Positions 18,729 through 42,248 are shown, counted from the first letter of the stretch. The stretch is 46,859 nucleotides of DNA from a virus (IMGVR_UViG_3300032731_000599:1-46859), one strand, 5' to 3'. Notes: a model not told the origin generated them from the letters alone. Translations and numbers: made by a program.

Positions 18729-19244
18729 ATGAACAAACAAAAAGCATTAGAAAAAATTGAAGAATCAAAAAAGTTCGTAGAAGATTTAGATAAAAAACAA
18801 GAGTGGGTAAAGATTGATTATTCTGTTATCCCAAAAGAATTATTTGACAAGTATGGATGCAAGCCCTTTGAGATAATGAAAAAAAAGATGAGGGATGTGA
18901 ATAATGAAGTTTGGAATAATATCAATTATTTTGAAGCTCAAAAAATATGTGAGAGGTCAGGTTATCGTTTGCCAAATATTAGAGAAATGTTGGTGTTATT
19001 AGAATTTTATAAAGAAGAAAATAAAATCGTAGGTTGCTACGACAAAGGATTTTTAGGGATTGAAGAATTAGATTATAATGAGAATGTGTGCTATGAGTGG
19101 ATTTATTGTTTGAAAGATTGTGGCTTTCTCCGCGGTGGCAATTGGCGCTATGGCTCGTATGCGGGGCTGTTTGCTCTGAACCTCAACTCTGCTCCGTCTT
19201 ACACGTACAACAGCATTGGCTTTCGGTGCGCTCGCTCGCTTTAA
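18729..19244 (+). CDS. DGR target protein 1, C-type-lectin/FGE-sulfatase fold
   Basis: This 171-residue protein ends in a C-type-lectin-type domain of the formylglycine-generating-enzyme-like family, the standard scaffold diversified by DGRs. Visible marks are YRLPNIREMLVLLEF and, in the variable region (residues about 132-169), FLRGGNW, AGLFAL and IGFRCAR. The N-terminal 45 residues are a charged helix. It has no signal peptide or virion-anchoring domain, and it lies in the early block rather than with the tail genes. Inference: a diversified binding protein, perhaps displayed through a partner. No retroelement reverse transcriptase is nearby. Confidence 0.85.
   Translation: MNKQKALEKIEESKKFVEDLDKKQEWVKIDYSVIPKELFDKYGCKPFEIMKKKMRDVNNEVWNNINYFEAQKICERSGYRLPNIREMLVLLEFYKEENKIVGCYDKGFLGIEELDYNENVCYEWIYCLKDCGFLRGGNWRYGSYAGLFALNLNSAPSYTYNSIGFRCARSL
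19122..19233 (+). other. DGR variable region 1 (VR1)
   Basis: 112 bp aligned without gaps to 40719-40830. Ninety-three positions are identical. The 19 differences all fall at codon positions 1 or 2, and in 16 of them one copy has A; the other three are explained by both copies having changed from A. Reconstructing A at those sites gives a template with 11 AAC or AAT codons, the hallmark of a DGR template. The region uses CGC, CGG, CTG, CTC and CCG codons that the rest of this AT-rich phage largely avoids. Confidence 0.88.
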
Positions 19245-19304
19245 TCTAAAATCTAAATAAATAAACTCTTTAATAAAAGGAGGAAGTAATCTTAGGAGGT
19301 TATT

Positions 19305-19442
19305 ATGTTCTAGCAGATTTCTATACTTTGCATCGTTTTAATACTTCTGATTGGTGGAAGTATATTTAATGAGTATTTTCTTTATAATCCGTATTATAAA
19401 GGGACGAAAGATAGCAGAAAACCAAAAAAGTCCGAATTATAG
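19305..19442 (+). pseudogene. Small membrane-protein frame with in-frame TAG at codon 3
   Basis: A strong ribosome-binding site (TTAGGAGGT, 19293-19301) precedes an ATG at 19305. The frame reads Met-Phe-TAG and then stays open for 42 codons, encoding a hydrophobic segment (QISILCIVLILLIGGSIF) and a polar basic tail before the next TAG at 19440. TAG ends other genes here, so it is not reassigned genome-wide. The frame could be a recent nonsense mutant, a suppressor-dependent gene or an assembly error. Confidence 0.4.
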
Positions 19443-19493
19443 GGCTTATTATAAGAACGAAAAATAGCAGAGAATAGCAGAGGAGGAGGTATA

Positions 19494-19601
19494 ATGAACA
19501 AGAAAGATAAGGACACAATAATCACTCTCTATCTCAGATATGGATACAAAGGCATACTGGCTGTTATTGCTAACTTCTTATTGAGCAAAAAGATTACTTA
19601 A
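19494..19601 (+). CDS. 35-aa peptide with strong ribosome-binding site
   Basis: An unusually strong Shine-Dalgarno (AGGAGGAGGT) lies a few bases before the ATG at 19494. The peptide MNKKDKDTIITLYLRYGYKG continues with a hydrophobic stretch (ILAVIANFLLSKKIT). Most genes in this window lack such a site, so this small cassette (19281-19601) has a different translational style and may be acquired. Function unknown; a membrane-active peptide is possible. Confidence 0.5.
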   Translation: MNKKDKDTIITLYLRYGYKGILAVIANFLLSKKIT

Positions 19602-19607
19602 ACAAAC

Positions 19608-19683
19608 GAGAACCCCTAGCTCAAAACAAAATAAATAAGTCATTACGGCTTAAAAATTAAATAGAGGGGTGTCGGGGGTTCTC
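19608..19683 (+). promoter_or_regulatory. Inverted repeat leader 3
   Basis: GAGAACCCC at 19608-19616 pairs perfectly with GGGGTTCTC at 19675-19683 across a 58-bp A/T-rich loop and is followed by a T-rich run. The arms resemble those of the leaders at 14025 and 15273 (GAGAAACC/GGTTTCTC type). It precedes the gene at 19719. A regulatory RNA structure is inferred. A terminator is possible but the T run is interrupted. Confidence 0.5.
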
Positions 19684-19718
19684 TATTTAAAAGATTTTAA
19701 TTAGTTTAATATAATATT

Positions 19719-19910
19719 ATGGAGATATATGATAATGAATTTAATAAACCTAAGAAGATAATGTGGGTAATTAATTTTGTTTTGACACTTGTATTTTTTG
19801 GTGCTATTGCACTTTTTGTTATTAAAGAAATAGAAAGAGTAAAAGATGAAAACGGAATTAAGGGCGTTTTAATGGAAGTTTGGGAAGGCAAAGAGGTAAA
19901 AGTTAATTAG
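19719..19910 (+). CDS. Single-pass membrane protein, 63 aa
   Basis: It has a polar N-terminus (MEIYDNEFNKPKKIMW), one membrane helix (VINFVLTLVFFGAIALFVI) and a charged tail of about 25 residues. Its stop codon is contained in a 27-bp repeat that also follows the gene at 20131. Function unknown. Confidence 0.6.
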   Translation: MEIYDNEFNKPKKIMWVINFVLTLVFFGAIALFVIKEIERVKDENGIKGVLMEVWEGKEVKVN

Positions 19911-19924
19911 TTTAATAATATAAT
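19898..19924 (+). repeat. 27-bp intergenic repeat, copy 1
   Basis: Identical to 20366-20392 and similar to 19693-19712. Each copy starts near the end of a gene and includes TTTAATAATATAAT, which contains a TATAAT-like hexamer, so the repeats may carry minor promoters. They may also mark duplicated gene cassettes. Confidence 0.75.
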
Positions 19925-20134
19925 ATGAAAAAGTTAATGGCGAGAAATAGAATAAAAAAGGATGATATATTTATTATTGAGGGTGGTTATAAAGAATATT
20001 TTTATGCAAGAAAAGCAGAAAGAAAAGATGATAAATGGTTATTTAGATTTTTTGTTTCAGATAAAAATTATAAGGGGGGTGAAATAATGATTAAAGGGAT
20101 GAAAAGTTTAAACAATTTTAAAGAAATAATATGA
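19925..20134 (+). CDS. Small basic protein, 69 aa
   Basis: A Lys/Arg-rich protein (MKKLMARNRIKKDDIFIIEG) with a predicted small beta-sheet centre (YFYARKAERKDDKWLFRFF). It directly follows a repeat copy and overlaps the next gene by 4 bp (ATGA). No family is recognised; nucleic-acid binding is possible from charge alone. Confidence 0.55.
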   Translation: MKKLMARNRIKKDDIFIIEGGYKEYFYARKAERKDDKWLFRFFVSDKNYKGGEIMIKGMKSLNNFKEII

Positions 20135-20367
20135 AATGTAAAATATGTAAATTTAACGACACTGACTCAACCACTGGAATATGTTGGGAGTGTTGCGACA
20201 ATAGAGAATTTCTTTTAGAATGGAGTAGTATCATAGATTGGTTTATGATTTATTATATAATTTATCCAAAAAGTTTAGAAGATAGTCCAGAAAGATATGA
20301 TTATAGAACAAGGGAAGAATACATAAGGTATTTTGTTAAGAAAATGACGCTTCAAGAAAATTTTTAA
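20131..20367 (+). CDS. Small zinc-finger-like protein, 78 aa
   Basis: The N-terminus carries two Cys pairs (CKIC and CWECC) around residues 3-25 that could bind zinc. An aromatic-rich helical region follows (WSSIIDWFMIYYIIY). Its start overlaps the previous stop. Function unknown. Confidence 0.55.
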   Translation: MKCKICKFNDTDSTTGICWECCDNREFLLEWSSIIDWFMIYYIIYPKSLEDSPERYDYRTREEYIRYFVKKMTLQENF

Positions 20368-20392
20368 AAGTTAATTAGTTTAATAATATAAT
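20366..20392 (+). repeat. 27-bp intergenic repeat, copy 2
   Basis: Identical to 19898-19924. Here it lies just before the phosphoesterase gene, which has its own strong Shine-Dalgarno. The position fits a promoter or a recombination scar. Confidence 0.75.
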
Positions 20393-20449
20393 CGTTCTTT
20401 TAAAAATTCTATGGAGGAATAAGAAGTCCAAAAACCAAAAGGAGGTAAG

Positions 20450-21280
20450 ATGGACAAGATAGATAAAAACAGGTGGGCTGAATTGCGTAAAAATGTTAAT
20501 TTTCAAAAAGGAGCAACGCCAAGATTAAATCGCCAAAGGTTAGAACCCAAGAATCACGGAAAAGAGTATGCTGAAATAGTTTTTTTCGGAGATACACACT
20601 GGGGTAGTCCACAATGCGACAGAGAAAGGGCAAAGCGAATGATACAATATTGCATTGACAAAGAGATTTATGTTTTGCTTATGGGAGACTTGATTGAATT
20701 CGCTACCAAAGGTTCTGTTGGAGCTGGAGTTTACGAACAGACAATGAACCCTCATCAGCAGTTTGACGAGACAATGGAGATGCTTATGCCATTAGCAGAC
20801 AAGAAATTGATATTGGGATTACACAGAGGAAACCACGAAATGAGAGGATACAAAGACGCTGGTATTGATATTGCTCGTATTATGGCAACGGAATTGAATT
20901 GCCGTTATTTAATGGATGCTTGTTGGAACTTGTGGTATGTTGGCAAGCAATCATACACTCTCTACACTTTGCACGGGGCAACTGGAAGTCAATATGTTTA
21001 TACCAAATTGAATTCAGCCATTAAAATTGCTCAGAATTTCAAAGCAGAAATTCTTGCAATGGGACACGTCCACGAGAACGCAAGCACTTCGGTAATCTAC
21101 CAGTCGGTTGATAAAGTAAGAAAAGTTATCCAAGAAACCAAAGGGTATGTTATTCTTACTGGGCATTATCTCAAATACGACGGTGGCTACGCACAAATGA
21201 AAGGAATGACTATTGGCAAAATGGGTTCTCCAAAACTTAAGCTGTATGCTAACAAGCACGACATTCACATTTCAAGTTAA
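20450..21280 (+). CDS. Metallophosphoesterase (calcineurin-like)
   Basis: This 276-residue enzyme carries the full set of metal-binding motifs in order: GDTHWG (residues about 43-48), GDLIEF (about 83), GNHE (about 125), a His in TLHGATG (about 172) and GHVHENA (about 203). Such proteins hydrolyse phosphomono- or diesters with two metal ions. Phage members are often DNA or RNA processing enzymes, but the substrate cannot be read from sequence. The ATG is preceded by AAGGAGGTAAG, a strong ribosome-binding site unusual in this genome. A hairpin follows the gene. Confidence 0.85.
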   Translation: MDKIDKNRWAELRKNVNFQKGATPRLNRQRLEPKNHGKEYAEIVFFGDTHWGSPQCDRERAKRMIQYCIDKEIYVLLMGDLIEFATKGSVGAGVYEQTMNPHQQFDETMEMLMPLADKKLILGLHRGNHEMRGYKDAGIDIARIMATELNCRYLMDACWNLWYVGKQSYTLYTLHGATGSQYVYTKLNSAIKIAQNFKAEILAMGHVHENASTSVIYQSVDKVRKVIQETKGYVILTGHYLKYDGGYAQMKGMTIGKMGSPKLKLYANKHDIHISS

Positions 21281-21297
21281 TTGGACTTCAAAAAATT

Positions 21298-21318
21298 GGG
21301 CAGGTGAAATTCCTGCCC
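21298..21318 (+). terminator. Hairpin after the phosphoesterase gene
   Basis: A perfect 7-bp GC-rich stem (GGGCAGG / CCTGCCC) with a 7-nt loop lies 18 bp after the stop codon. There is no strong T run downstream, so if it is a terminator it is weak. It could equally protect the mRNA end. Confidence 0.45.
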
Positions 21319-21337
21319 ATACAAAACATTTAAGATT

Positions 21338-21958
21338 ATGAAAAAGTTAAAAATATTAAATTCATATTGTGGAATTGGAGGAAATAGAAAGCTATTAGGA
21401 GATGACCACGAGATAACTGCCATTGAAAATGTGCCAGAAATAGCAAAAATTTATCAAGATTTTTTTCCAAACGATAAGGTTATTGTTGCTGATGCTCATC
21501 AATATTTGATAGAACATTATAAAGAGTTTGATTTTATTTGGAGTAGCCCACCTTGCGTAAGCCACTCATCTTTTAGGCAAAATATTTGTGTAAGATTTAG
21601 GGGGACCAAACCCGTTTATCCTGATATGCGATTATATGAAGAAATATTATTTTTAAAATATAATTTTAAAGGAAAATATATAATAGAAAATGTTAAACCT
21701 TATTATGAACCTTTAATAAAGCCAAATATAATTTTACAACGACATTTATTTTGGAGTAATTTTGAAATTGTTGACAAAAAGTTTGAAAAAGATAATATTC
21801 GTAAAGCACAAATACCTGATTTGCAAAAGAAATATGGATTTGATTTATCATTTTATAAGTTAAAAAATAAACGACAAGTGTTAAGAAATTGTGTAAATCC
21901 AGAGTTAGGGTTACATATATTTCAAGAGGCATTTAGAGAAGATAATAAATTATTTTAA
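21338..21958 (+). CDS. DNA (cytosine-5) methyltransferase, short
   Basis: This 206-residue protein has the C5-methylase motifs: an AdoMet-binding motif I (YCGIGGNRKLL), an acidic motif II (ITAIENVPE), motif IV with the catalytic Cys (WSSPPCVSHS), ENVKP (motif VI), and a C-terminal NCVNPELG that corresponds to motif IX/X. It is shorter than typical type II methylases because the target-recognition region is small. The likely role is to modify phage DNA against host restriction. There is no partner restriction enzyme. Confidence 0.85.
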   Translation: MKKLKILNSYCGIGGNRKLLGDDHEITAIENVPEIAKIYQDFFPNDKVIVADAHQYLIEHYKEFDFIWSSPPCVSHSSFRQNICVRFRGTKPVYPDMRLYEEILFLKYNFKGKYIIENVKPYYEPLIKPNIILQRHLFWSNFEIVDKKFEKDNIRKAQIPDLQKKYGFDLSFYKLKNKRQVLRNCVNPELGLHIFQEAFREDNKLF

Positions 21959-22066
21959 ATAGGAGAGAAAGAATGGGATTATGGAGAAAGTATATATAAT
22001 ATTGATATTAGACCTTTGCCAACACAATATATATCAACACAAGTTAATAAACCTAACAAAAAAAGT

Positions 22067-22267
22067 ATGTTAAACAAATTGACGAACACATTAAAAAAGA
22101 TTTTACCAAGTGATATTCAAAAGCAATATCGTGCTGGTTTTAGAAATGGTGATTTAATTTTGACTGGTGCTGGGCAAGGTGAGTTATTTGAAATTATGGC
22201 AGACAAATTCAAAAAAGAACTTACTGATAGAGCAATAGAAGTTATAAAAGAAGAAGAGAAAAAATAG
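22067..22267 (+). CDS. Small helical protein, 66 aa
   Basis: The only ATG in frame is at 22067; a TTG at 22016 could give 83 residues. The frame is open right back to the methylase stop at 21956-21958 and reads like protein (GEKEWDYGESIYNIDIRPLP), so a longer product or a truncated downstream exon of the methylase gene is possible. The core is amphipathic helix with a Lys/Glu tail. Function unknown. Confidence 0.5.
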   Translation: MLNKLTNTLKKILPSDIQKQYRAGFRNGDLILTGAGQGELFEIMADKFKKELTDRAIEVIKEEEKK

Positions 22268-22269
22268 CC

Positions 22270-22599
22270 ATGGAAGAGAAAAGAACATCACAACAGAATA
22301 GAGCGCTTTATTTATGGTTTACATTAGTAGCTAAAGGATTAAACGATGCAGGGCTTGATATGAAAGAGGTTCTAAAGGACGAGGTAGATATTCCTTGGAC
22401 CAAGGATATGGTTAAAAAGTTTCTTTGGAAGCCTATCCAAGAAATCGCTTTAGCTAAGAAGTCTACAGCTAAGCTTACTACAAAGGAGGTTGATATTGTT
22501 TACAATGTTCTAAACAGGCATCTTGGAGAAAAGCTGGGCTTTTATCAGCCATTTCCTTCAGATGAGCAAGTGGCTTTGAGTAAGCTAAAGAAAGATTAA
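22270..22599 (+). CDS. Conserved recombination-region protein (NinB-like, tentative)
   Basis: This 109-residue protein opens with SQQNRALYLWFTLVA and contains DEVDIPWTKDMVKKFLW and a closing HLGEKLGFYQPFPS. Proteins of this shape occur in phage recombination or Nin-type regions, and it lies just before zinc-ribbon and endonuclease genes here. I name the resemblance from memory of the family and cannot test it. It starts 2 bp after its neighbour. Confidence 0.5.
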   Translation: MEEKRTSQQNRALYLWFTLVAKGLNDAGLDMKEVLKDEVDIPWTKDMVKKFLWKPIQEIALAKKSTAKLTTKEVDIVYNVLNRHLGEKLGFYQPFPSDEQVALSKLKKD

Positions 22600-22617
22600 T
22601 CAACTAATCTAAATATT

Positions 22618-22878
22618 ATGATTTATCTAGGAGAAACAGGACTAAATAAGACTTGGCAGACAGCATTTCCCAAGGCTACGAGATGCGTTCATTGTGGCAA
22701 GGTCGCAAGGATTGGCTTTGTTTATTGTGAGGAGGCTGATAGCGCCAACAAGGAATTCGTTTGCCAACTACACGATAATGGGAAGAAAGACAAGCTCTGG
22801 CTCCATGATGCTGTGGCTGTTGCTGTGTATTTTTGTGAGGGTTGTCTGAAAGCCACTGCGTTATATAACCAAGCGTAA
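22618..22878 (+). CDS. Zinc-ribbon protein, 86 aa
   Basis: It has two zinc knuckle pairs, CVHC near residue 22 and CEGC near residue 77, with additional Cys in between (VYCEEAD). The protein begins MIYLGETGLNKTWQTAFP. Its stop overlaps the next start (TAATG, 22877-22880). No specific function is recognised. Confidence 0.6.
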   Translation: MIYLGETGLNKTWQTAFPKATRCVHCGKVARIGFVYCEEADSANKEFVCQLHDNGKKDKLWLHDAVAVAVYFCEGCLKATALYNQA

Positions 22879-24794: not shown

Positions 24795-24885
24795 GTGAAA
24801 ATGAGCTTAAGTGTCCGACTTGCTTTTGGTTTTTGCGACGCGCTTCTATACTTTGCCTATAAGTAAAGGTTCTGGCTGTGTGATA

Positions 24886-30278: not shown

Positions 30279-32225
30279 ATGGAAAAAGTAGAATATAAAA
30301 ACCCTGTTAATTATAATGAAAAAGAAATAGCTTATAGGGGCGAATTGATTAAGAAATTGAATAGAGCCAATAATCAAAGAATTGCGAGTTATGTAGAGTT
30401 AGATGATATGAATTATTTAGAATATCATTCCCGAAATAAGAAAGCTGCTAATTCTTATATTCCACCCAAAAAAGATATAGAAGATACTCGCATTGTTACA
30501 GGCATCACTCACGAGAAGGAGTTGAGTTTGCTTTCCTCGATGTTACAATATAATTTTGAAGCTGACATTGAAGCTTTTGACATTAATGATTTGAAGATAG
30601 TTGAGTTAGGCAATACAATGCAGGATTTAATTAAAAAAAGCAGATATATTGAAAGATACGATATAAAACGACCATTGTTTTATAAAGAATTATTTGACCA
30701 AGGAACTATTTTTGTAGAAGAAGATTTTTTAGAAAAAACAATTATTCAGAAAAAGCTTTCAGGGATGGACCCATCTGTGGACCCAACTAAGATTAAGTGG
30801 ACCGAAAAGATTGTTTCAAAAACAGGAGAATGTGATTCTCACGTTTTAGATGGGACTCATGTATATTTAGGAAACATAAAAGAATTTTTTATTGAAAAAC
30901 AACCTTATATTTTTACATTAGATAAGATACCTTATTCTTCTGCTGAACGTAAATATGGCAAATGGAAACGCTGGGAATATGTTCCAAAGAAAGTTGTACA
31001 TTTTGGTACGACAGAAAAAGTAAGTCAAGATGACGATTGGACTCTTTTAGAAACTGAAAATGATTTTGTAGAAGAAATTAAATTCCAAGATAAAAATGGC
31101 AATGAATATATGATTATGCTTAATGGCGTAATGATGTTACCTATTAAGTTCCCAATGTTATGGGGCAATAATTATAATATTATTAAAGGAGATATAGAGC
31201 CCATTAGTCCTTTCTTTGCTTATTCAAAAAGCATTCCTTCTAAAACTAAAGTTGATCAAGAAGTCTTAGATGAAATGCTTAGGCTAATAATTTTAGAACA
31301 GCAAAAGAGCTTTGCTCCTCCAATGGCTAATAATACAGGGCAAGTGTTGAGTCGTAAAATATTTTTACCAAAAACTATTGTTCCAAATATTGACCCAAAT
31401 GATTTAATGGAAATTGGAGAAAACAAAGGGGCAAGTGTCGCTCAGATTAGAGGATATGAATTATTGAAAAAGATAATTGACCAGAAGTCTACTCAGCCAG
31501 CATTTGGAGGTGAACAAGCAGAAGGCAGACAAACGGCTACTGAAATTACTGAGCTCAAAAAGCAAACGATGATGAAGCTTGGAAATGCTTTAATTGGTGT
31601 TATAAATTTTGAGTGGCAAATGTGCAGGGTTAGATTGCCTAATTTATTGATTAACTGGACGAAAGCTAAAGGAACGGGATTTGATAAAGCTAAAAATGAA
31701 GTAGTCAGTTTATATCGCAAAATAGAAGTTAAGGGCGAAGTTGAAGGAAGAGGGCTTGGAACTAAAGTAATAGAATTTTCTAAGACCCCACGGTCTCCAA
31801 AGCAAGTTCAAGCTGAAGAAATGTTACTTAGCTTAGGTGGCAGTCCAGTTCAAAAGCTATACATAAATCCAGAAAAGTTAAGAAAAACAATAGATTATAA
31901 CTGGCAGATAAATATAACACCTGTTGAGAAAGATACCGATGAGCTTCAAAAGGCTATGTGGTTCCAAAAGATAGAAGGATTGTTAAGCTTATTTGGACCA
32001 GATTCATTGAACATGGAGTATCTAAAGTATAGGAGTGCTGTTACATTACAGGAAGATTTTGATAAATTATTTATCTCAGGGGTTCCTGCTGCTCCAGCTA
32101 TGGCTGAGGAGCGTAGACCTAATCCTAGTGTAGAAAGCCCTGACAAAGCTAATGAAAAGATGTCTAGGGGTGTTACAGCTCCAGTAAAAAATCGTCAGCC
32201 TAGTATTAACAAAATGGAAAGATGA
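30279..32225 (+). CDS. Portal protein
   Basis: This 648-residue protein follows the terminase at once. The central region (ISPFFAYSKSIPSKTKVDQE, then EMLRLIILEQQKS) and the helical stretch (GEQAEGRQTATEITELKKQT) have the pattern of podovirus-type portals. The length agrees with P22-like portals (about 700 residues). Twelve copies should form the ring that joins head, DNA motor and tail. It overlaps the next gene by 4 bp (ATGA). Confidence 0.85.
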   Translation: MEKVEYKNPVNYNEKEIAYRGELIKKLNRANNQRIASYVELDDMNYLEYHSRNKKAANSYIPPKKDIEDTRIVTGITHEKELSLLSSMLQYNFEADIEAFDINDLKIVELGNTMQDLIKKSRYIERYDIKRPLFYKELFDQGTIFVEEDFLEKTIIQKKLSGMDPSVDPTKIKWTEKIVSKTGECDSHVLDGTHVYLGNIKEFFIEKQPYIFTLDKIPYSSAERKYGKWKRWEYVPKKVVHFGTTEKVSQDDDWTLLETENDFVEEIKFQDKNGNEYMIMLNGVMMLPIKFPMLWGNNYNIIKGDIEPISPFFAYSKSIPSKTKVDQEVLDEMLRLIILEQQKSFAPPMANNTGQVLSRKIFLPKTIVPNIDPNDLMEIGENKGASVAQIRGYELLKKIIDQKSTQPAFGGEQAEGRQTATEITELKKQTMMKLGNALIGVINFEWQMCRVRLPNLLINWTKAKGTGFDKAKNEVVSLYRKIEVKGEVEGRGLGTKVIEFSKTPRSPKQVQAEEMLLSLGGSPVQKLYINPEKLRKTIDYNWQINITPVEKDTDELQKAMWFQKIEGLLSLFGPDSLNMEYLKYRSAVTLQEDFDKLFISGVPAAPAMAEERRPNPSVESPDKANEKMSRGVTAPVKNRQPSINKMER

Positions 32226-32542
32226 AATTAAAATTTTTAAAGAAATTCAAAGCAAAAGAAGTAAATTATATAGATAAAATGTCTAAAGAGAAAGCTGGTC
32301 AATTTTTTTCTAACTGCAATTCTCTGTTATATAATAAGACATTAAAACTAATAATTGAAAAATTAAGTCAAGATCAGAGTACTTTTGCTACAAGACAAGC
32401 TGGAAATTGGGAAAGTGTTTTGATAGCTAGAGGAGGCATTAATACATTATTTTTACTAGAAGAAGAGATAGAGAAATATGCTGCTTGCTATAAAGATGAA
32501 GTAAAAGCTAAAGAAGTCTTTGATAAATTTTCTATAATTTAA
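32222..32542 (+). CDS. Hypothetical head-module protein, 106 aa
   Basis: It begins MKLKFLKKFKAKEVNYIDKM, is helical and ends in an acidic/basic alternating region. It is translationally coupled to the portal (ATGA). A head-to-tail adaptor or portal-accessory role fits the position, but no motif supports it. Confidence 0.6.
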   Translation: MKLKFLKKFKAKEVNYIDKMSKEKAGQFFSNCNSLLYNKTLKLIIEKLSQDQSTFATRQAGNWESVLIARGGINTLFLLEEEIEKYAACYKDEVKAKEVFDKFSII

Positions 32543-32560
32543 AGGTCGTATTAATTAAGT

Positions 32561-32591
32561 GGTTTTTCAGGCTCCGGAACCTGTAAAAACC
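32561..32591 (+). promoter_or_regulatory. Strong hairpin before the scaffold-like gene
   Basis: GGTTTTTCAGG (32561-32571) pairs with CCTGTAAAAACC (32580-32591) with one bulged T and an 8-nt loop, 17 bp before the ATG at 32608. No U run follows immediately. It is likely a regulatory or stabilising structure at the boundary between portal and head-assembly genes. Confidence 0.6.
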
Positions 32592-32607
32592 GTGTTAAAA
32601 ATCACTT

Positions 32608-33216
32608 ATGACAGAATACAAAAAGTTTACCAACGAAGATGGCGAAGAAGTTGAAGGTCTTTCTAAGGAAGAATTTGAAGCTGAAGCGCAAAAGCAAAAG
32701 GAAGAATTTGAGACGAAAGAAACAGAGTTAAATGAAACAATTAAGAAATTTGAAGCTAAAGATTTAAATTTCAAGGCTCTAAGAGGAAAGAGTAAGGAAG
32801 AAAGAGAAACATTTTTAGAAAAGTTAGATGAGAAAGACAAGAAGTTCTTTCTAGCTAATGAAGAAAATTCTGCAAGAATCGATGAAATTAATTCTAATCG
32901 TACTCAAGAAAATCAAGACATTGCTGTTGCATCTTTATGTGGCGATGATGAAGAATTAGTTAAAAAGGTTTTAGCTAACCTTGAACTATTAAATGTTGAA
33001 CCAAAAACAAAGAAAGAAATGGTTGACAAAGTTACTAAAGCTTACAATATGTCCGTAGATGTTAAAGACAGAAACCCAGTTTTAGGGGTGTCTAGATCAA
33101 CAAACGAAGGAGATATTGTAAGTAAAAACAAGAAACCAATGTCAGCTGAAGTCAAAGAAATTGGTAAAAAAATGGGTATAAGTGAAGAGGATATAAAAAA
33201 GTATGGAAACAAATAA
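32608..33216 (+). CDS. Putative scaffolding protein
   Basis: This 202-residue protein is very rich in Glu and Lys with long helices (LSKEEFEAEAQKQKEEFETK) and no hydrophobic core, the usual look of a phage scaffolding protein. Its place between portal and capsid genes is also typical. It overlaps the next gene by 14 bp. No protease is encoded next to it, so the scaffold is presumably released intact or cut by a host enzyme. Confidence 0.65.
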   Translation: MTEYKKFTNEDGEEVEGLSKEEFEAEAQKQKEEFETKETELNETIKKFEAKDLNFKALRGKSKEERETFLEKLDEKDKKFFLANEENSARIDEINSNRTQENQDIAVASLCGDDEELVKKVLANLELLNVEPKTKKEMVDKVTKAYNMSVDVKDRNPVLGVSRSTNEGDIVSKNKKPMSAEVKEIGKKMGISEEDIKKYGNK

Positions 33217-33652
33217 AGAAGAAAAGAAAGAAAAAACTGTAGAAGTTTCTCAGAAATATCTTGAAGAAATCATGCAAAAGATAGAAAGGTTAGAAGCAAC
33301 TACTTCTAAAGCTCGGTTAGGGACTTACGACGAAAAGCACAGAAAACCAGTTGGCAAGATTTCTGCTATTAGAAAAATTGGCAGTAAATATGTTGTAGGC
33401 TGGAGCGATATGATACAGAATCGGGTTGAACAAAATGTTGTTACTAACAAGTGGGAAGAAATTCAAGAGGTTAATATCTTTTTCATTGATAATACCGAAA
33501 AGAAAATGACTTATAAGCAATGGAAAGATAGATATACTAAAGTTAAATGCGAAGTTGTTTCTGAGACTAAAAATTCTGATGGAAGTGTTAATGTTACTCT
33601 ATTGCTCCCAGAAGGTGAAAAAGTGACTTTAGATGTTAAATTTGTAAACTAA
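33203..33652 (+). CDS. Hypothetical head-module protein, 149 aa
   Basis: The N-terminal 35 residues form a coiled coil (EVSQKYLEEIMQKIERLEAT). The rest is beta-rich (GKISAIRKIGSKYVVGWSDM, VNVTLLLPEGEKVTLDVKF). Overlap with both neighbours places it in the head-assembly operon. A coiled-coil stalk with a beta domain would suit a virion decoration or scaffold-associated protein. Confidence 0.55.
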   Translation: METNKEEKKEKTVEVSQKYLEEIMQKIERLEATTSKARLGTYDEKHRKPVGKISAIRKIGSKYVVGWSDMIQNRVEQNVVTNKWEEIQEVNIFFIDNTEKKMTYKQWKDRYTKVKCEVVSETKNSDGSVNVTLLLPEGEKVTLDVKFVN

Positions 33653-33993
33653 TGTATATTGGAAAAGAAGAGGTATTAACAATTGCAGAAAAGGATTCTA
33701 ATGTTCAAATTTCTTTTAAAGGAAAGAATAAACAGGGGATTGAATTGAATAAAGATTTATATGAGTTGGCTAGAAAGGACAAACCTACTGAGCAAGAACC
33801 AATGGATGCAGTATTTAACAGATTAGCTAAAAAGATATTTGTTGAATTGGCTGACTATGGAATGACTTGTATAGAAATTCAAACATTAGTAAGTCATATT
33901 CAAAACCTTATGCACAATAGACGTGAATTGGTTGTTGGGAAGAAATTTGGAGTAACAAATTCTCGGTTCATTAAACTTAAAGATTTACTTTAA
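33652..33993 (+). CDS. Hypothetical head-module protein, 113 aa
   Basis: The stop and start overlap (TAATG). It begins MYIGKEEVLTIAEKDSNVQI, is mixed alpha/beta and has no membrane segment. Nothing identifies its function. A structured 220-bp intergenic region follows. Confidence 0.55.
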   Translation: MYIGKEEVLTIAEKDSNVQISFKGKNKQGIELNKDLYELARKDKPTEQEPMDAVFNRLAKKIFVELADYGMTCIEIQTLVSHIQNLMHNRRELVVGKKFGVTNSRFIKLKDLL

Positions 33994-34004
33994 TTCTGAA
34001 ATAA

Positions 34005-34148
34005 TGTCTATAAGCGATAAAGGTTTATAGACATGCTTCAGCATTCAAGTTTATCTATTTACTAAAGGATTTTTCTTTTAGCAAGCAGATTAAGCTTTGT
34101 AAACAATCATCTCTTTTTGGTGGAGAAACCACCTTAAAAACTAAAGAG
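34005..34148 (+). promoter_or_regulatory. Structured intergenic region upstream of decoration/capsid genes
   Basis: The stretch 33994-34214 contains no gene. It has a perfect 9-bp hairpin (TGTCTATAA / TTATAGACA, 34005-34033) whose 11-nt loop GCGATAAAGGT recurs exactly in a hairpin at 37087-37111. A second nested structure has an inner GGTGG-AGAAA-CCACC (34119-34133) and outer CTCTTT / AAAGAG arms (34111-34116, 34143-34148). It immediately precedes the most highly expressed virion genes, so mRNA processing, stability or translation control is likely. Confidence 0.65.
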
Positions 34149-34214
34149 ATTATCTAATAGACTTTTGAAAAGAAATTGCAAGTTTATTAGTCGAAAATTT
34201 GTTCTTTTTAAAAG

Positions 34215-34652
34215 ATGGTAATTTCAAACAAATATATGAGATGGATTAAAGGAAAAACTATTTGTAAGAAATTCCCCAAAACCGCTTCTGAAGTCTTCAC
34301 CAAAGGAGATATGGTTAAGTTAGTTAGTGGTTACATAACAAGTGTTGATTCTACAAGTGTTGAAGCTCTTGGTATAATTAAAGAGTCGGTTGCTACAACT
34401 GATGATGATTATGCTTCTACTACCGATGTGATGGTAGAAATTCCCAACGAGCCAAACTGCGTATTTGAATCTACTGTTGTAACCGCATTAGCTGCAACCG
34501 ATGTTGGCAACGTCTTAGATTTTAGCACTGATGCTATTATCAATGAAGCTGCTAATACTTATGGACCAGTTACTTGCGTTAAGTATATTAGTGCAACTAA
34601 AGGTTGGTTCTATCTCAATGGCTTTGAAGGTTATAGAATGGCTAAATCTTAG
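34215..34652 (+). CDS. Putative capsid decoration protein
   Basis: This 145-residue beta-rich protein (TKGDMVKLVSGYITSVDSTS, ESTVVTALAATDVGN) resembles the small decoration/stabilising proteins (DUF2190-like) encoded just before or after major capsid genes. The role is to strengthen the capsid shell. The position 3 bp before the capsid gene is the main support. Confidence 0.65.
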   Translation: MVISNKYMRWIKGKTICKKFPKTASEVFTKGDMVKLVSGYITSVDSTSVEALGIIKESVATTDDDYASTTDVMVEIPNEPNCVFESTVVTALAATDVGNVLDFSTDAIINEAANTYGPVTCVKYISATKGWFYLNGFEGYRMAKS

Positions 34653-34655
34653 TAT

Positions 34656-35672
34656 ATGGAATTAAATTCAGTAAGCCAATCAGATTTTACTAGATTAGCG
34701 TTAATGATTTGGGAGAAGTCAAAAGCTTCTGTTTCAAACATTATGCGTACATCTGGTTTATTTAAGATTGAATCTATTCCAAAAGGAACCGGAGATACAA
34801 GGGAATATTCTGAAATTGACCTGAACGAATATGCGTTAAATAAGGACGAAAGTGATGATGCTGCCAGAGCTTCTGCTCAACAGGGTTATAAGAAAACTAT
34901 GACTGCTGTTACAAGAGGTATGGATATCGGTATCAGTAAAGTTATGAGAGATAGGAATAAATATCCTGAAGTTATTTCTAAACTTACCAACCTTGGTAAG
35001 TTGCCAGATAACAGATTGGATTTAGACCTTACTCATAGGCTTACTTTCGGAACAGCTACTACTTACACCGATATGGACGGAAAATCTGTCAGTATTGATT
35101 TAGGTGATGATTTACAGTTGTTTTACTCTGAACATTTGCTTTTAGGAGCAGATGGCGGAGGAAGTTCAACTACTTATAGGAATCGTTTAGCAAATAATCC
35201 TAGTCTTTCTAAAGGTTCTTTAGAAGGAATGGAAAGATTAGTTGCTGAGGAAACCTATAATTATCACGGTGAACTTATGGCTGAAACCCCATTTGACGTA
35301 TTGTGGACAGGACCAGACCCTAACACTGTAAATACTGCTCAAGAATATCTTAAGAGTACTGCTGACCCAGAAGGAGCTCATTCGGGAACATTTAATGGCT
35401 ATGCCTCTAAGTATAGACATTTAATAATTCCTCGTTTAGCTACCGATGCTTCTGGTGGACCAGATACTGATAAAAGATATTACTGGGGAATTGCTTCCAC
35501 TTCTCATTCAACTGCTCATTTGGGCATTTGGAACGAAACTTATCTTTTAACTCCTACTGAGTTAGGAAAAGATTCTACTGAGGATTGGAACTACGGTGCT
35601 AGAAATGACTACGGAATCTGTATTGTTTCTGGCTCATTCATTAAAATGAGCTCGGGTGATGGTGCTGCATAG
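34656..35672 (+). CDS. Putative major capsid protein (HK97-fold)
   Basis: This 338-residue protein lies in the usual position after scaffold and decoration genes. It has an N-terminal helical part, a spine-like central region (KKTMTAVTRGMDIGISKVMR) and a Ser/Gly/Thr-rich middle that could be the E-loop or an insertion. The end (NYGARNDYGICIVSGSFIKM) resembles the close of Mu-type capsid subunits. The length is on the short side of normal. Structural-fold prediction is needed to be sure. Confidence 0.7.
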   Translation: MELNSVSQSDFTRLALMIWEKSKASVSNIMRTSGLFKIESIPKGTGDTREYSEIDLNEYALNKDESDDAARASAQQGYKKTMTAVTRGMDIGISKVMRDRNKYPEVISKLTNLGKLPDNRLDLDLTHRLTFGTATTYTDMDGKSVSIDLGDDLQLFYSEHLLLGADGGGSSTTYRNRLANNPSLSKGSLEGMERLVAEETYNYHGELMAETPFDVLWTGPDPNTVNTAQEYLKSTADPEGAHSGTFNGYASKYRHLIIPRLATDASGGPDTDKRYYWGIASTSHSTAHLGIWNETYLLTPTELGKDSTEDWNYGARNDYGICIVSGSFIKMSSGDGAA

Positions 35673-35797
35673 ACTTCAATCTAAAGTCCTAAATTAAAAT
35701 TAGGCACACATATAAACTTTTAACTTATGAGGAACTATTAGTCATAGTTCTCTAGGTCGGTGGTGGAGTTAAAAGACACATTAAAATAATTTAATTT
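35673..35797 (+). promoter_or_regulatory. Structured intergenic region after the capsid gene
   Basis: No frame is present. A multi-part structure is visible: outer arms CTTTTAACT (35717-35725) and AGTTAAAAG (35767-35775), and an inner hairpin GAACTAT-TAGTC-ATAGTTC (35732-35750). A smaller CCTAA / TTAGG hairpin lies near 35690. It sits between two abundant virion proteins and may adjust mRNA stability or partial termination. Confidence 0.55.
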
Positions 35798-36799
35798 ATG
35801 AGTAATTATAATCCCAATGTAGGTTATGGTCAAAGCTTGATAAACTTTGCTCGTACTATATGTCCTACTTTTGGAAACATTTTGGTAGTTATGAACTCAT
35901 CTAATTCAGATGAAGCTAATTATCATAAGGTTCAAGAAACATTCAAACCAGACCCAATGGGTTTAGTCAGATTCTATACTACTCTTGATGCAGCTTATGA
36001 TGCTGCTGAAAGTAACAATAATGATATTATTTTACTTGATGCTAATAGCTCTCATAGTGTAGCTGTTGGTGGTTTAGCTGTTAGTAAAAGTAGAATTCAT
36101 TTTGTTGGTATGGATGGTGGAGGTAGATACCTTCAACAAGGTTCTAAAGTTCAAAGTACTGCTGGAACTGCAGCGGTTTATGTAATAAAGAACACTGGAA
36201 CTAGAAATACTTTCAGGAATATCAAGTTTATTCAAACTGATGATGAAGCTACTTCACTCACTTGTTTCCAAGAAGGTGGAGAAGGAACATACTTTGAAAA
36301 TTGTTCATTCACTTTTGGTGATGTAGATAATCTTGACCAAACAGATGCCTATGACTTTGTTCATGGTGGTGATTCTGTAACAATGAAAGAGTGTACATTC
36401 GGTAATGATACTTTATTAACTTCAGCTGGTAGAGCAGTAATGGCTATTGACACTGTAACATCTGGTCAGCCATTTAAGAACAACGTCTTTAAAGATTGTC
36501 TTTGGATGACTGCTACAAGTTCAACAGACCTAAGTTTCATTAGAGTATTAGCTACTTCAGATGTAAACTTTGGAAATGTGTTTATTAATTCTATTATGAT
36601 GAATGCACTTATAGATTCAAATAGTGCTGCTGCTACTGATGATGCTGTTGATTCAGTGTCTGGTTTAGTTGCTGGTAATTTACTTTTTGTAAATCCTTCT
36701 ACTAATGCAACAAAATTTTGTTCAGATGTAACAGACCAAGTGCAAGTTGTCGGTCCTACCACTAATGCTGCTGCTGGATTATCTAAGACACCAGCATAA
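35798..36799 (+). CDS. Beta-helix virion structural protein
   Basis: This 333-residue protein has the repetitive short-strand pattern of a right-handed parallel beta-helix in its middle (VIKNTGTRNTFRNIKFIQTD, FENCSFTFGDVDNLDQ, FKNNVFKDCLWMTATSS). It begins MSNYNPNVGYGQSLINFART. Proteins of this kind next to capsid genes are often capsid spikes, decoration trimers or a second shell component. Composition is Asn/Thr/Ser-rich like other virion proteins here. Confidence 0.65.
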   Translation: MSNYNPNVGYGQSLINFARTICPTFGNILVVMNSSNSDEANYHKVQETFKPDPMGLVRFYTTLDAAYDAAESNNNDIILLDANSSHSVAVGGLAVSKSRIHFVGMDGGGRYLQQGSKVQSTAGTAAVYVIKNTGTRNTFRNIKFIQTDDEATSLTCFQEGGEGTYFENCSFTFGDVDNLDQTDAYDFVHGGDSVTMKECTFGNDTLLTSAGRAVMAIDTVTSGQPFKNNVFKDCLWMTATSSTDLSFIRVLATSDVNFGNVFINSIMMNALIDSNSAAATDDAVDSVSGLVAGNLLFVNPSTNATKFCSDVTDQVQVVGPTTNAAAGLSKTPA

Positions 36800-36810
36800 A
36801 CCATTGATAT

Positions 36811-37074: not shown

Positions 37075-37086
37075 TCTCTGATAGAG

Positions 37087-37111
37087 CTAATGAGCGATAA
37101 AGGTTCATTAG
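37087..37111 (+). promoter_or_regulatory. Hairpin with the shared 11-nt loop
   Basis: CTAATGA (37087-37093) and TCATTAG (37105-37111) enclose GCGATAAAGGT, the same 11 nt found in the hairpin loop at 34014-34024. The stems differ in sequence but both are perfectly paired, so the structure rather than the stem sequence is conserved. It lies between two structural genes. Confidence 0.7.
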
Positions 37112-37148
37112 TTCGCTTGAGGGATTTAATTAAACTAAATAAAAATCT

Positions 37149-37571: not shown

Positions 37572-37590
37572 ATAATTTAATATTTTACTT

Positions 37591-39321
37591 ATGAAAAAGA
37601 AATTACTATTTTTGTTTCTAGCATTAGTACTTATTTTTGGCATTACTAAAGTCGATGCCCAAAATCTTATTAGTGGTTTCTCTAGTGGTAATGTTATCAC
37701 TAGTTTATGGGAATATAAGAATACTTATATCGTTCCATTTGAAACCTTAGATATTGGAGCTACTGGCGATAGAATACCAAATATCTATGCTACTAACATG
37801 AACACAAACACAATAACAATAAACACAGCTTCAGAAGGAAAGCTGACTATTGACGTAACTGACCCTGAGGCTTTTTTAACTCGCAGAGATGCTGATGCTG
37901 GTGATTTAGTTGTCTTTGATACGACCAATTTTGACATAGGGTTCTTTGGTGGTGCAGAATTTAGCCCAACAACAGTACCTTCTACGGCTATACTGATTGA
38001 CCAAAATTATAATCATATATCACTTGATATAGATAGCGAAGCAACTTCAGCTACTGTTCTCAATATAGCTGCTGCGAATACTTCAGGCGACTTATTCAAG
38101 ATACTAAACACCTCTGAAATGCTTGCTCTTGATTATTTGGGCAACTTAGATGTCGCTCAAGATGTAGATGTAGGAGATGACATATTATTAGCTGATGGTG
38201 CTGTTATAGGAATAGCTGGTAATGAGGTTATAACTTGGAATGCTGCTGGTTCAATAAACTTCACAGGGGCTACCGTAGATATAGATGGTGCTTTCACAGC
38301 TGGAAGTGTAGCAAGCGATGCTACTGTTTCAGGAACAACTATTACTGCTTCTACTGGGTTTGCTTTAGGAACTACTGATTGGATTGGAATAACAGGAAAT
38401 GAAATCATTACATTTAATGAAGCAGGCTCAATAAATATCACTGGAGCAACATTTGATGTAGACGGAGCTATGACAGCAGGAACGATAACTTCAGATGCTG
38501 GAGTTTCAGGAACAATACTTTATGCAGGAGATGGAACCGCTGCAGCACCAAGCATAACTTTTACAAGCGATACAGATACAGGGCTTTTTAGATTATCAGC
38601 TGATGAATTAAGTTTAGGTGCTGGTGGCGATGAAGGATTAAGAATAGATTATAACGAATTAGAAGTTCAACCTTTAATGACTTTAGCTGTTGGACCAATA
38701 GAACTTGACGAAGATAGTGGAGCAGTAACTTTGGTTAACTTGCCTGTTAGTGCTACACCTGCTGATAACACTGAAGAAAGCTATTCTTTCGCTATTGATA
38801 GTAATCCTGTTTTAACAGTTTATGGATTAGCTGATAGCTCTGGTGGGACAGATACTCATTCAATAACTATCAACGGTTCAGCTTATATATTAGAACAAGC
38901 AGACGCTTACGCTGATACCGCTACTTATGGTCAATTATGGGTAAATACTGCTACCCCTAATGAATTATACTTTACCACTGATGCAGGAGATGATAGAGAG
39001 ATTGCTTATGCTGGTGGTGCTTTTCACGATGGTTTTTCTGATTTTGTAGCTAACGAGCATATTGATTGGACTTCTGCTTCTGTGGCTTTTTCTACAAGCG
39101 GAAGCGTAGGAACAGGAACGATATCAGCAACAGGGGCAATAACTTCTTCTTTTGCTGGTTCTCTTGGCTGGTCTGTAATAGCAAACACTACCCCTGATAC
39201 GACTTCTTGTACTACAAGTTGTACTACAGCTTGTGTATTTGGTTGGGACGATACAGGGGCTACAATATTAGATTGTGCATCACTTGTGCCAGACAAATGC
39301 GTATGTGCTGGAGCTAATTAG
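37591..39321 (+). CDS. Fibrous protein with N-terminal signal peptide
   Basis: This 576-residue protein starts with a textbook export signal (MKKKLLFLFLALVLIFGITK, predicted cleavage at VDA/QN around residue 23). The body is Ala/Thr/Asp/Gly-rich and beta-structured. It contains an internal duplication (GNEVITWNAAGSINFTGAT and GNEIITFNEAGSINITGAT, about 62 residues apart). The end is Cys-rich (TTSCTTSCTTACVFGW). Such sequences resemble tail-fibre stalks. The signal peptide is unusual for a virion protein and implies export of the product, or a cell-surface role during infection. Confidence 0.7.
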   Translation: MKKKLLFLFLALVLIFGITKVDAQNLISGFSSGNVITSLWEYKNTYIVPFETLDIGATGDRIPNIYATNMNTNTITINTASEGKLTIDVTDPEAFLTRRDADAGDLVVFDTTNFDIGFFGGAEFSPTTVPSTAILIDQNYNHISLDIDSEATSATVLNIAAANTSGDLFKILNTSEMLALDYLGNLDVAQDVDVGDDILLADGAVIGIAGNEVITWNAAGSINFTGATVDIDGAFTAGSVASDATVSGTTITASTGFALGTTDWIGITGNEIITFNEAGSINITGATFDVDGAMTAGTITSDAGVSGTILYAGDGTAAAPSITFTSDTDTGLFRLSADELSLGAGGDEGLRIDYNELEVQPLMTLAVGPIELDEDSGAVTLVNLPVSATPADNTEESYSFAIDSNPVLTVYGLADSSGGTDTHSITINGSAYILEQADAYADTATYGQLWVNTATPNELYFTTDAGDDREIAYAGGAFHDGFSDFVANEHIDWTSASVAFSTSGSVGTGTISATGAITSSFAGSLGWSVIANTTPDTTSCTTSCTTACVFGWDDTGATILDCASLVPDKCVCAGAN

Positions 39322-39335
39322 TAAATAATATATAT

Positions 39336-42248
39336 ATGAAAATAAAACACATATTATTAACTGCCACTATATTAGGTCTAATAATATCTGGTGGTTTAGG
39401 AATAAACTCATTAAGGCAATCTGCTCCAAGTGAGGGTGGCTTGGTTGGCTATTGGACTTTAGCTGAAAGTGATTTATATACTGCTGGTATCTTTCAAGAT
39501 ATGAGTGGCAATGGAAATAATGGAACTTCTGCTAATGCTCCTGTATATACTAAAGACCAAGCTGGAGTTCCTAATCAAGCAATGACTTTTAATGGAAGTA
39601 CTGATTATGTAACATTAGGTTCAAGTGTTGTTTTAGATAAAGATAATGCTTCTTTATCATTTTGGATTAATCCGACTTTAGATTCAACAGATATTATAAT
39701 AGGAAAAAGTGATGATAAATATCAATCTTATATAAAACTTGTTGATACTGGAGAGGTTTATGGAGAAACAAATACTAATACAGATGATTTTAGGAGTACT
39801 ACAACAATTTCTGCTGACGTATGGACTAATGTAATTTTAGTATTTGATAGTGGAACTTATTATTTTTATTTTAATGGAATTCAAGTAAGTTCAGGTAGTG
39901 TTTCAGATGATTTAACTTTTAATTGGATTGGTAAAAGTATGGATGATTACTCAGCTGCTATTTTTGATGGCTCACTCTCTGACATAATGATTTATTCCTC
40001 AGCTCTAACAGCAGATGAAGTATCTAAACTTTACTTAGCTGGGCGGACAACTGCGAGGGTTAAGGTGGATGCTTGTCCTACAGATATGGTTTATGTTGGT
40101 CACGATTGGACTTGGCAAGGAACACATTGGACACAAGAATATTTTTGTATTGATAAATACGAGGCGTCAAATGGCGGAGGGGCTTATTATGTAGATATGA
40201 ACGGTGATGGTGATACAGCAGATACAGCGGTTAATGTTTATGGTGATGGCACGACTTTTAATGAAACAACGCCAACAGCAAAAGCAGTTTCTGTTTATAA
40301 CGCTACACCTTGGGTTTCTATCAATCAAGTTAATGCCAAAGCCGCTTGTATGGCAGCAGGCAAACATTTGGCGACAAATTACGAAATGCTTTTAGCAGCC
40401 AAAGGAACCCCTGACCTGGGCTCTGGCTGGGGAGCTAATGACTGTCAGGTTAATTATAACTGGGATTCTCAGCCCGGTCTTACTGGTTCAGGTTCAAATT
40501 GTGTTTCTGATGCTGGAGCTTATGATTTAATCGGTAATGTTTGGGAGTGGACTGATAATGTAATTGTAGATAATGCCCATCCAGCTACTGGGGCGTCTTT
40601 ACCAGGCACAAATCTTATTACTGGGTTAGATGTTTATGGTTTGCCAACCTCAACTGATGGTTCTGGTTCGGATGATTACAATTATGACAAGTTCTGGATT
40701 ACTGTTACTGGTTATCGCGGCTTTCTCCGCGGTGGCGGTTGGACCGGTGGCTCGAATGCGGGGCTGTTTGCTCTGTTCCTCCTCTATGCTCCGTCTAGCA
40801 CGAACAGCGCCCTTGGCTTTCGGTGCGCTCTTACTATTCCTCCTGCTATAACTCCTAAACTACAAAAAGGTTTAATACTTGATATGCCTTTGAATAGTTT
40901 ATATACAGAAGCAGGGGGGGAATTAAGTTCAGGGTTATTGATAGTTGGACATAAATATATTATAACGGCGAGAACAGACGGTGATTTTACAGCAGTTGGC
41001 AGTCCTGATAATAATGTTGGCACAAAGTTTTCAGCAAGTGCTACTGGTGCAGGATTATTAGATGCTGGAGATAAAGTCAAAGAACTTGACGGCACTACTA
41101 AAGACCGAACACCTTATGGAAATGACGGAACTGTAAGCGGTGCTACTATTAAATATGATGGTTTAGTAAATGCTGGTGCTGGGATAGCTTATATAAATCA
41201 AGATAAGGCGTATGGGACTTGGGAGTTTGATGTTAATAAAGGTGGGGCTGATGATATTTTAACTATAATTTTTATAAATGATAACATTGAAACATTTACC
41301 TCTAATAAAAATTCATATTATTTTCAAATATATAGTAATGAAGCATTATATTTTAGTAGATATTCTGAAGGTAGTGAACAATCGCTATTTTATACTGCAG
41401 CTTCTTACATAGCAATCAACACAGATTATCGTATTAAAATAACTCGTTCACTCGCAGGAGTATTCACTGTTTATATAAAAGGTGGAACTTTTGGTTGGGA
41501 TAGTTGGACAACCGTTAGTGTAGCTGGTGGTTCAGGAACTAATCCTGTAACTGACAACACTTATACAACTTCAAATTACTTCATAGCTGACCTTGATAAC
41601 ACAGACACAATTTCTAATTTGCGTATTGATTCAAAAAGAATAAGTTTAGCAAAAGCTGTTCAAAGCACAGGGACTTGGACATTAACAGGTGGGGCTTATG
41701 ATTTCACAACAGATGACTATATTTCAATAACTGATACTGACCTTTTAAGTTTTGGAGATGGAACAGATGATAGTCCTTTTAGTGTTAGTGCTTGGGTTAA
41801 TATGGATGATGCTACTGATTTTAAGATAGCAAGTAAGGGTGTTTATAATACTGATGGAGAGTGGAGACTTGAAACCGCAGGTGATGATAAAATTGCATTT
41901 AATTTATTTGACGAAAGTGTTGCATCTACACTTCAATATGTTTATTATAATACTCCATTAACTGCTTATGAGGGACAATGGATACATTTGGTTGCAACTT
42001 ATAATGGTGTAGGTGGAGTTGACGCTCACGATGGAATGAATATATATATTGATGGTGTTTTAATAGATATTTTAAGGGGGGTAGCTGGAACTTATGTAGC
42101 AATGGAAAACCTAACCCACGATGTATGGATAGGAAGATACAGCACAACTTATGCTAACGGACAAATATCAGGGCTTAAGATATATAATAGGGAGCTTAGT
42201 TCTACAGAAATAGAATACCTTTATTCAGCTAATAAATTCAAATACTAA
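39336..42248 (+). CDS. DGR target protein 2: LamG - C-type lectin (FGE-sulfatase) - LamG adhesin
   Basis: This 970-residue protein begins with a hydrophobic signal or anchor (ILLTATILGLIISGGLGI). It continues with a LamG domain (about 35-230, LVGYWTLAESD ... LYLAGR). An FGE-sulfatase/C-type-lectin domain (about 247-500) carries CIDKYEAS, GKHLATNYEML and YDLIGNVWEWTDN. A second LamG-like domain runs from about residue 790 to the end. The DGR variable region (40719-40830) codes for residues 462-498. It is thus in the middle rather than at the C-terminus, which is uncommon. Likely a diversified surface or tail adhesin. Located with virion genes, but exported by its signal. Confidence 0.85.
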   Translation: MKIKHILLTATILGLIISGGLGINSLRQSAPSEGGLVGYWTLAESDLYTAGIFQDMSGNGNNGTSANAPVYTKDQAGVPNQAMTFNGSTDYVTLGSSVVLDKDNASLSFWINPTLDSTDIIIGKSDDKYQSYIKLVDTGEVYGETNTNTDDFRSTTTISADVWTNVILVFDSGTYYFYFNGIQVSSGSVSDDLTFNWIGKSMDDYSAAIFDGSLSDIMIYSSALTADEVSKLYLAGRTTARVKVDACPTDMVYVGHDWTWQGTHWTQEYFCIDKYEASNGGGAYYVDMNGDGDTADTAVNVYGDGTTFNETTPTAKAVSVYNATPWVSINQVNAKAACMAAGKHLATNYEMLLAAKGTPDLGSGWGANDCQVNYNWDSQPGLTGSGSNCVSDAGAYDLIGNVWEWTDNVIVDNAHPATGASLPGTNLITGLDVYGLPTSTDGSGSDDYNYDKFWITVTGYRGFLRGGGWTGGSNAGLFALFLLYAPSSTNSALGFRCALTIPPAITPKLQKGLILDMPLNSLYTEAGGELSSGLLIVGHKYIITARTDGDFTAVGSPDNNVGTKFSASATGAGLLDAGDKVKELDGTTKDRTPYGNDGTVSGATIKYDGLVNAGAGIAYINQDKAYGTWEFDVNKGGADDILTIIFINDNIETFTSNKNSYYFQIYSNEALYFSRYSEGSEQSLFYTAASYIAINTDYRIKITRSLAGVFTVYIKGGTFGWDSWTTVSVAGGSGTNPVTDNTYTTSNYFIADLDNTDTISNLRIDSKRISLAKAVQSTGTWTLTGGAYDFTTDDYISITDTDLLSFGDGTDDSPFSVSAWVNMDDATDFKIASKGVYNTDGEWRLETAGDDKIAFNLFDESVASTLQYVYYNTPLTAYEGQWIHLVATYNGVGGVDAHDGMNIYIDGVLIDILRGVAGTYVAMENLTHDVWIGRYSTTYANGQISGLKIYNRELSSTEIEYLYSANKFKY
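40719..40830 (+). other. DGR variable region 2 (VR2)
   Basis: 112 bp matching 19122-19233 at 93 positions without gaps. All 19 differences are at codon positions 1 or 2 of the proposed AAY/AYT-type template codons. The flanking sequences outside the 112 bp are unrelated, so the boundaries of exchange are sharp. The region is GC-rich with codons rare elsewhere in the phage. Confidence 0.88.

Follow-up and report, generated by a model that had tools for sequence, protein, structure and literature searches.

Two variable regions of diversity-generating retroelement type in a phage genome without a reverse transcriptase, and their probable rewriting in trans

The viral DNA IMGVR_UViG_3300032731_000599 (46,859 nt; this whole stretch is called the window, and coordinates count from its first base) carries two variable regions (VRs) of the type rewritten by diversity-generating retroelements (DGRs). 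No reverse transcriptase (RT), Avd or template repeat (TR) was found in it. We propose that the VRs of this RT-less phage are rewritten in trans by a DGR, which most likely belongs to the chromosome of a host from the candidate phyla radiation (CPR). We give this explanation as a whole a probability of about 0.72. Its first part, the action in trans, is held with higher confidence than the whole, and its second part, the CPR chromosome, with lower confidence.

Variable regions and the inferred template

The two VRs are located in two genes, which are called here the small and the large target gene. The features are as follows.

18729..19244, + strand: small target gene, 171 aa, ending in VR1; no signal peptide or membrane segment
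19122..19233, + strand: VR1, 112 bp, at the 3′ end of the small target gene
19218..19233, + strand: invariant 3′ end of VR1, candidate initiation of mutagenic homing (IMH) site, GGCTTTCGGTGCGCTC
39336..42248, + strand: large target gene, 970 aa; N-terminal hydrophobic segment, LamG, FGE-sulfatase domain with VR2, second LamG/sialidase-like region
40137..40829, + strand: FGE-sulfatase domain (PF03781, C-type-lectin-like) containing VR2, above the Pfam cut-off
40719..40830, + strand: VR2, 112 bp, inside the large target gene
40815..40830, + strand: invariant 3′ end of VR2, candidate IMH, the same 16 bases as at the end of VR1

VR1 and VR2 were aligned without gaps over 112 bp, which gave 93 identities and 19 differences. 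Both VRs start in frame, and all 19 differences are at codon position 1 or 2, with none at codon position 3 (P = 5e-4). One copy has A at 16 of these sites, and the remaining three are G/C, T/G and G/C. On recomputation, the coordinates and counts given in an earlier reading, made from the sequence alone, proved exact. The 16 sites with A were confirmed, and so was the restriction of the differences to codon positions 1 and 2, which holds in both reading frames. The similarity of the small and large target genes is limited to ~112-117 bp, and nothing is shared outside this segment. The GC content of VR1 is 57%, compared with 28% for its gene, and that of VR2 is 63%, compared with 35-37% in its flanks. 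At third codon positions, the GC content (GC3) reaches ~65% in the VRs and 17-29% in the rest of both target genes, as is expected if the VRs were overwritten from a foreign template. The terminal 16 bases are identical in VR1 and VR2 and similar in L061, the closest DGR found; the window has no TR of its own for an IMH* comparison.

An inferred template was derived from the window alone by keeping the bases shared by VR1 and VR2 and placing A at each differing site. At the 89 sites where this template has a base other than A, VR1 and VR2 do not differ at all. Departures from the template A sites were observed at 8 of 23 positions in VR1 and at 14 of 23 in VR2. The lack of differences at the 89 non-A sites and at third codon positions indicates that both VRs were written recently from one template.

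The IMG/VR database was searched with a peptide containing the translation of the inferred template; at the DNA level, L061 (IMGVR_UViG_3300028272_000244) matched best. It contains a complete cassette at one locus, consisting of a target with a terminal VR, Avd (PF22296), TR and RT. Its two repeats are located as follows.

120-231 of L061: VR of the L061 target
675-786 of L061: TR, the template repeat of the closest DGR found

The L061 TR has A at all 19 sites that differ between VR1 and VR2 (hypergeometric P 1.3e-16) and at all 23 A positions of the inferred template. It matches the inferred template at 74 of the 89 non-A sites. Among the 15 sites that differ, 11 are at codon position 3, where VR1 and VR2 show no difference. 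Such mostly third-position changes point to two separate templates with ordinary divergence. The TR of another DGR, from the CPR genome G205, has A at 18 of the 19 VR-differing sites. That both 112-bp stretches are DGR variable regions with A-targeted change, as the sequence-only reading had proposed, is thus strongly supported, and it was borne out at all 19 sites by the independent L061 TR. The same reading had counted 11 AAC/AAT codons in the template. Ten of them are forced by the window, whereas the eleventh (codon 23) is counted only if this codon is AAT, as in L061.

Gene content of the closed genome and of related phages

The window is bounded by a direct terminal repeat, which the sequence-only reading does not mention.

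1..141, + strand: left copy, exact
46719..46859, + strand: right copy, 141/141 identical to the left copy

A common metagenome assembler uses k-mers of up to 141. An exact repeat of this length therefore marks a contig that closes into a circle, and the genome was taken as complete, which makes the absence of an RT meaningful. The PF00078 search of the window gave no RT match. A DGR-RT profile and an Avd profile (built from L061 and G205) were used in unfiltered searches of all six frames of the circularised sequence, including the junction, and nothing below E=1 was found with either of them. When a third copy of the template was sought on both strands, the best other ungapped site matched at 50/112, and gapped blastn returned chance pieces only (<=19 bases). 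Besides the VR pair and the terminal repeat, the window has only one other long repeat, a 103-bp duplication. All these searches confirmed the earlier statement that the window has no RT and no third A-rich copy. An RT or a template within the phage genome, which would speak against a supply in trans, was looked for and not found, and the 141-bp repeat closes the contig. With RT, TR and Avd searched for and not found, the window has to be described as two DGR targets and is not classifiable as a DGR. A closed genome that lacks all three implies that the engine is located elsewhere.

A homologue of the small target (61% over 173 aa) is encoded in G455 (47,844 bp). It contains an in-frame NNY-type VR, which has 62% GC within a gene of 29% GC. 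Neither an RT nor a second copy of this VR was found in the whole 47.8-kb record, and the closest to the VR among the compared loci were CPR templates. The kinship of G455 to the phage of the window is visible in the genes at 34656 (57%) and 30279 (34%). A scan of IMG/VR with a two-sequence alignment gave a second homologue (54%), also ending in an in-frame VR, on the 36-kb contig L206. Its virion module differs from that of the window, with a different terminase and portal, and no RT was found in the 20.5 kb examined of this contig. The third homologue, on L207, is cut by the contig end. In 50,697 phage records, no member of the small-target family was found except for the VR motif itself. 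Judged by these comparisons, the small VR gene is a family conserved in separate phages, which is a new observation here. That separate phages with no visible RT keep a VR gene is not easily reconciled with a relic.

Possible source of the template

In the IQ-TREE phylogeny, the L061 RT fell within a group formed by CPR-genome RTs (support 99/95), and the CPR and L061 RTs together were split from 34 viral RTs by a branch with support of 99/97. The CPR genomes were reached via the Saccharibacteria contig L087, on which the phylum assignment rests. The L061 target and the end of the phage FGE-VR domain share 62% identity, and the homologues of this domain in the CPR genomes G665 (41-48%) and G131 (40%) are true DGR targets. 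The G665 target is homologous to the phage domain over its length, and its VR differs from the TR at 14 sites, all of which (14/14) are A in the TR. The neighbours of this DGR on the G665 contig are genes that we take, from reading of their translations, to be rpsB, tsf, prfA and trpS. In G131, Avd, TR and RT come after the target, and an mreB-like gene is present on the same contig. A search of genome contigs with a shorter template pattern gave nine loci, three of which (Saccharibacteria L087; L089 and L090) have template-like DGR repeats. In viral contigs, exact template patterns revealed no donor, and the shorter viral pattern gave only one unrelated DGR. The host is pointed to CPR by the position of the L061 RT among CPR RTs and by the resemblance of the FGE-VR domain to chromosomal CPR DGR targets. 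Our reasoned guess is that the host would be a Patescibacteria/CPR bacterium.

The G665 TR (L187 6878) contains an in-frame TAG stop in the VR frame, and an unchanged copy delivered by homing would truncate the target. The VRs found on separate contigs in G677 and G511 were not used as remote cellular targets, since they are possible assembly splits or copies. In G511, identical VRs are present on contigs C1 (L188 885) and C5 (L189 164) together with one TR, which can be read as a duplicated target or an assembly split.

According to the proposed mechanism, during infection or lysogeny a DGR at another site in the cell, with the CPR host chromosome as the most likely place, would reverse-transcribe its TR with errors at adenines. 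The cDNA would retrohome into both phage VRs via the matching IMH end, and both VRs would be rewritten repeatedly from one host template. The large product would thereby vary an FGE/C-type-lectin domain in a LamG protein of the virion-gene region, which is likely receptor-binding or surface-displayed. The small product would be an apparently cytoplasmic protein conserved in related phages. The trans step, the identity of the host and the roles of both target proteins are what we infer. The sequence-only reading had suggested that diversity is received in trans; this is supported and has become the leading explanation, with G455 carrying a VR gene and no RT, and with the nearest complete cassettes being of CPR type. 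The balance also tilts, although slightly, towards a wider class of phages that would be obligate clients of a host DGR. Such phages would keep VR genes without RT, TR or Avd, would include a small family spread across different virion modules, and would vary both surface and intracellular proteins, probably in CPR.

Several results weigh against this explanation. One scan of the whole genome collection with the exact template pattern (89 non-A sites) gave no match. In blastn of the template against ~850 CPR genomes (with overlap), the best loci agreed at ~67-69/89 sites, compared with 74/89 for L061. The phage terminase has distant CPR matches only, without a related neighbourhood. A GC-rich hairpin of the BPP-1 type was not found within ~75 nt 3′ of VR1 or VR2, and none follows the VRs of L061, G205 and G665 either. 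The absence of an RT is less firm in the related phages, as G455 has no terminal repeat and L206 was covered in part. Finally, L061 itself is catalogued as viral, which would also allow a prophage or a different phage as the donor.

This last point leads to an engine that acts in trans and is not owned by the host, with the DGR carried by a co-resident prophage, a plasmid or a co-infecting phage. Besides the viral collection from which the closest DGR comes, it is favoured by a 1904-aa open reading frame (ORF) beside the L061 DGR, which shares a stretch of 57% identity over 74 aa (6547-6759 of L061) with the window ORF 37591-39321 and resembles phage tail-fibre/endosialidase-chaperone proteins. 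However, a similar long ORF is present on the contig G654 of a CPR genome, which bears a DGR-type target, and the L061 RT nests among CPR-genome RTs. Moreover, clade 2 of Roux et al. was described as cellular and Patescibacteria-restricted (PMC8144416). Taken together, a non-host engine seems unlikely to us. The lack of an engine in the window, and the fact that gene loss is common in phages, would also fit an ancestor with a complete DGR from which RT and TR were lost recently, leaving the VRs as relics. It is difficult to reconcile this with the 89 unchanged non-A sites and unchanged third positions, which indicate recent writing from one template. The diverged relative G455 also has a VR gene without an RT, which argues against a single recent loss in this genome, and we consider such a fossil very improbable.

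The DGR cassette could instead belong to the phage and have been missed in an incomplete genome or a structural variant. The window is a metagenomic assembly, and repeats such as a TR and a VR can break assembly graphs. Nevertheless, the exact terminal repeat closes the contig, and the 47.8-kb G455 is also without an RT, which leaves little chance for a missed cassette. No DGR at all would be needed if a lectin motif had been duplicated and altered by diversifying selection or gene conversion. The RGG.W motif of FGE proteins is common in proteins unrelated to DGRs, and the large target does match PF03781. We regard this possibility as almost negligible, as no third position is changed, an independent TR has A at each of the 19 differing sites, the target genes have no similarity outside 112-117 bp, and the GC3 contrast within both genes is extreme.

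Rewriting of the phage VRs by a CPR host DGR would have precedents in known systems. A BPP-1 delta-ATR phage, with its own DGR deleted, was diversified in Bordetella by the plasmid pMX1 carrying avd-TR-brt (PMC3240598), and a DGR reconstituted in E. coli edits targets on a second plasmid and on the chromosome (PMC12875486). BPP-1 resembles the present case in having a phage VR in a receptor protein of C-type-lectin fold, and it shows that a VR-only phage can be served in trans. However, the RT, Avd and TR of BPP-1 are naturally on the phage itself, and the trans case was engineered. In Thiohalocapsa PB-PSB1, trans action between loci of one genome was argued from perfect non-A matches to a distant TR as the criterion (PMC10907252), and remote variable proteins were described in cyanobacteria (PMC7517822). 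The VRs of these bacteria are also located away from the RT, but TR and VR belong to one cellular genome, whereas in the window the VRs are carried by a phage, and so by a replicon of its own. Two widely spaced VRs in one phage are also known from gut phages in which the second VR is distal to the RT cassette (PMC12629997), but those phages encode an RT.

Among the loci compared here, the L061 cassette is similar in its template (A sites shared 23/23, non-A sites 74/89). It differs in being a complete single-locus engine that is not on this phage and in the 15 non-A sites of its template. The CPR DGRs (G665, G131 and G205), which are likened to clade 2 of Roux et al. by description, share an FGE target ending in RGG.W...GFRC, TR-VR differences at A, and an RT nearby. 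In contrast to the window, where the VRs are viral and the RT is absent, their VR and RT are at one cellular locus. The survey of Roux et al. would, by its own statement, miss remote targets (PMC8144416). Our literature search, with most subscription papers outside its reach, gave no description of phages in nature that lack an RT and use the DGR of their host.

If the explanation is true, a cellular machine for targeted mutagenesis is a shared resource that viruses can exploit, and surveys that demand an RT beside the VR leave the list of hypervariable viral proteins incomplete. A VR that is a near-copy of the host TR would also offer a virus-host link. From the conservation of the small VR protein, a use of DGR diversity inside the infected cell, and not for attachment alone, seems possible.

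Target proteins and neighbouring genes

The large target gene lies among virion genes conserved in related phages, which are located upstream (30279-36799) and downstream (43127-45964) of it. The downstream block carries an SU10-type adaptor domain. The product of the 34656 gene, which has relatives of 54-61% identity in six IMG/VR contigs, gave no family match, and its position suggests a capsid gene. The FGE domain is missing from all six contigs, several of which are fragments, and the VR-bearing domain thus looks acquired. The IMG/VR searches with the terminase (28755) and with the 30279 protein found no relatives. In a CPR genome, a tandem array of three FGE proteins that are homologous to the large target and have DGR-like C-termini is encoded at 7624-10144 of L132 (G295:C14), and no RT was found in the 18 kb covered there.

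The profile built from three small-target sequences gave weak matches, located within the VR, to two protein structures, Mtd of BPP-1 and the DGR variable protein of Treponema denticola, with E values of 0.014-0.085 (0.014 for Mtd). The small target matches FGE-sulfatase at E 0.027, and a C-type-lectin-like fold is tentative for it. AlphaFold models made without alignments were uninformative, with a pLDDT of 34 for the small target and 35 for the FGE domain.

Strong hydrophobic N-terminal segments are present in several tail-region proteins of this phage group (16149-17678 and 19454-21004 in L147; 37591-39321 and 39336-42248 in the window). Such N-termini are unusual in virion proteins and may serve display on the infected cell. 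The product of 37591-39321 looks secreted, and its gene adjoins the large target; the 1904-aa neighbour of the L061 DGR is a long repetitive ORF. A protein of 2474 aa, encoded at 5099-12523 of the window, contains a ParB-like stretch; Pfam gave no match to it, and the phage collection no relative. Two small genes closely precede the small VR gene, and the 103-bp direct repeat (98%; 17692-17794 and 18396-18498) is located between them. In G455, duplicated small genes are likewise present just upstream of the small-target homologue (L180).

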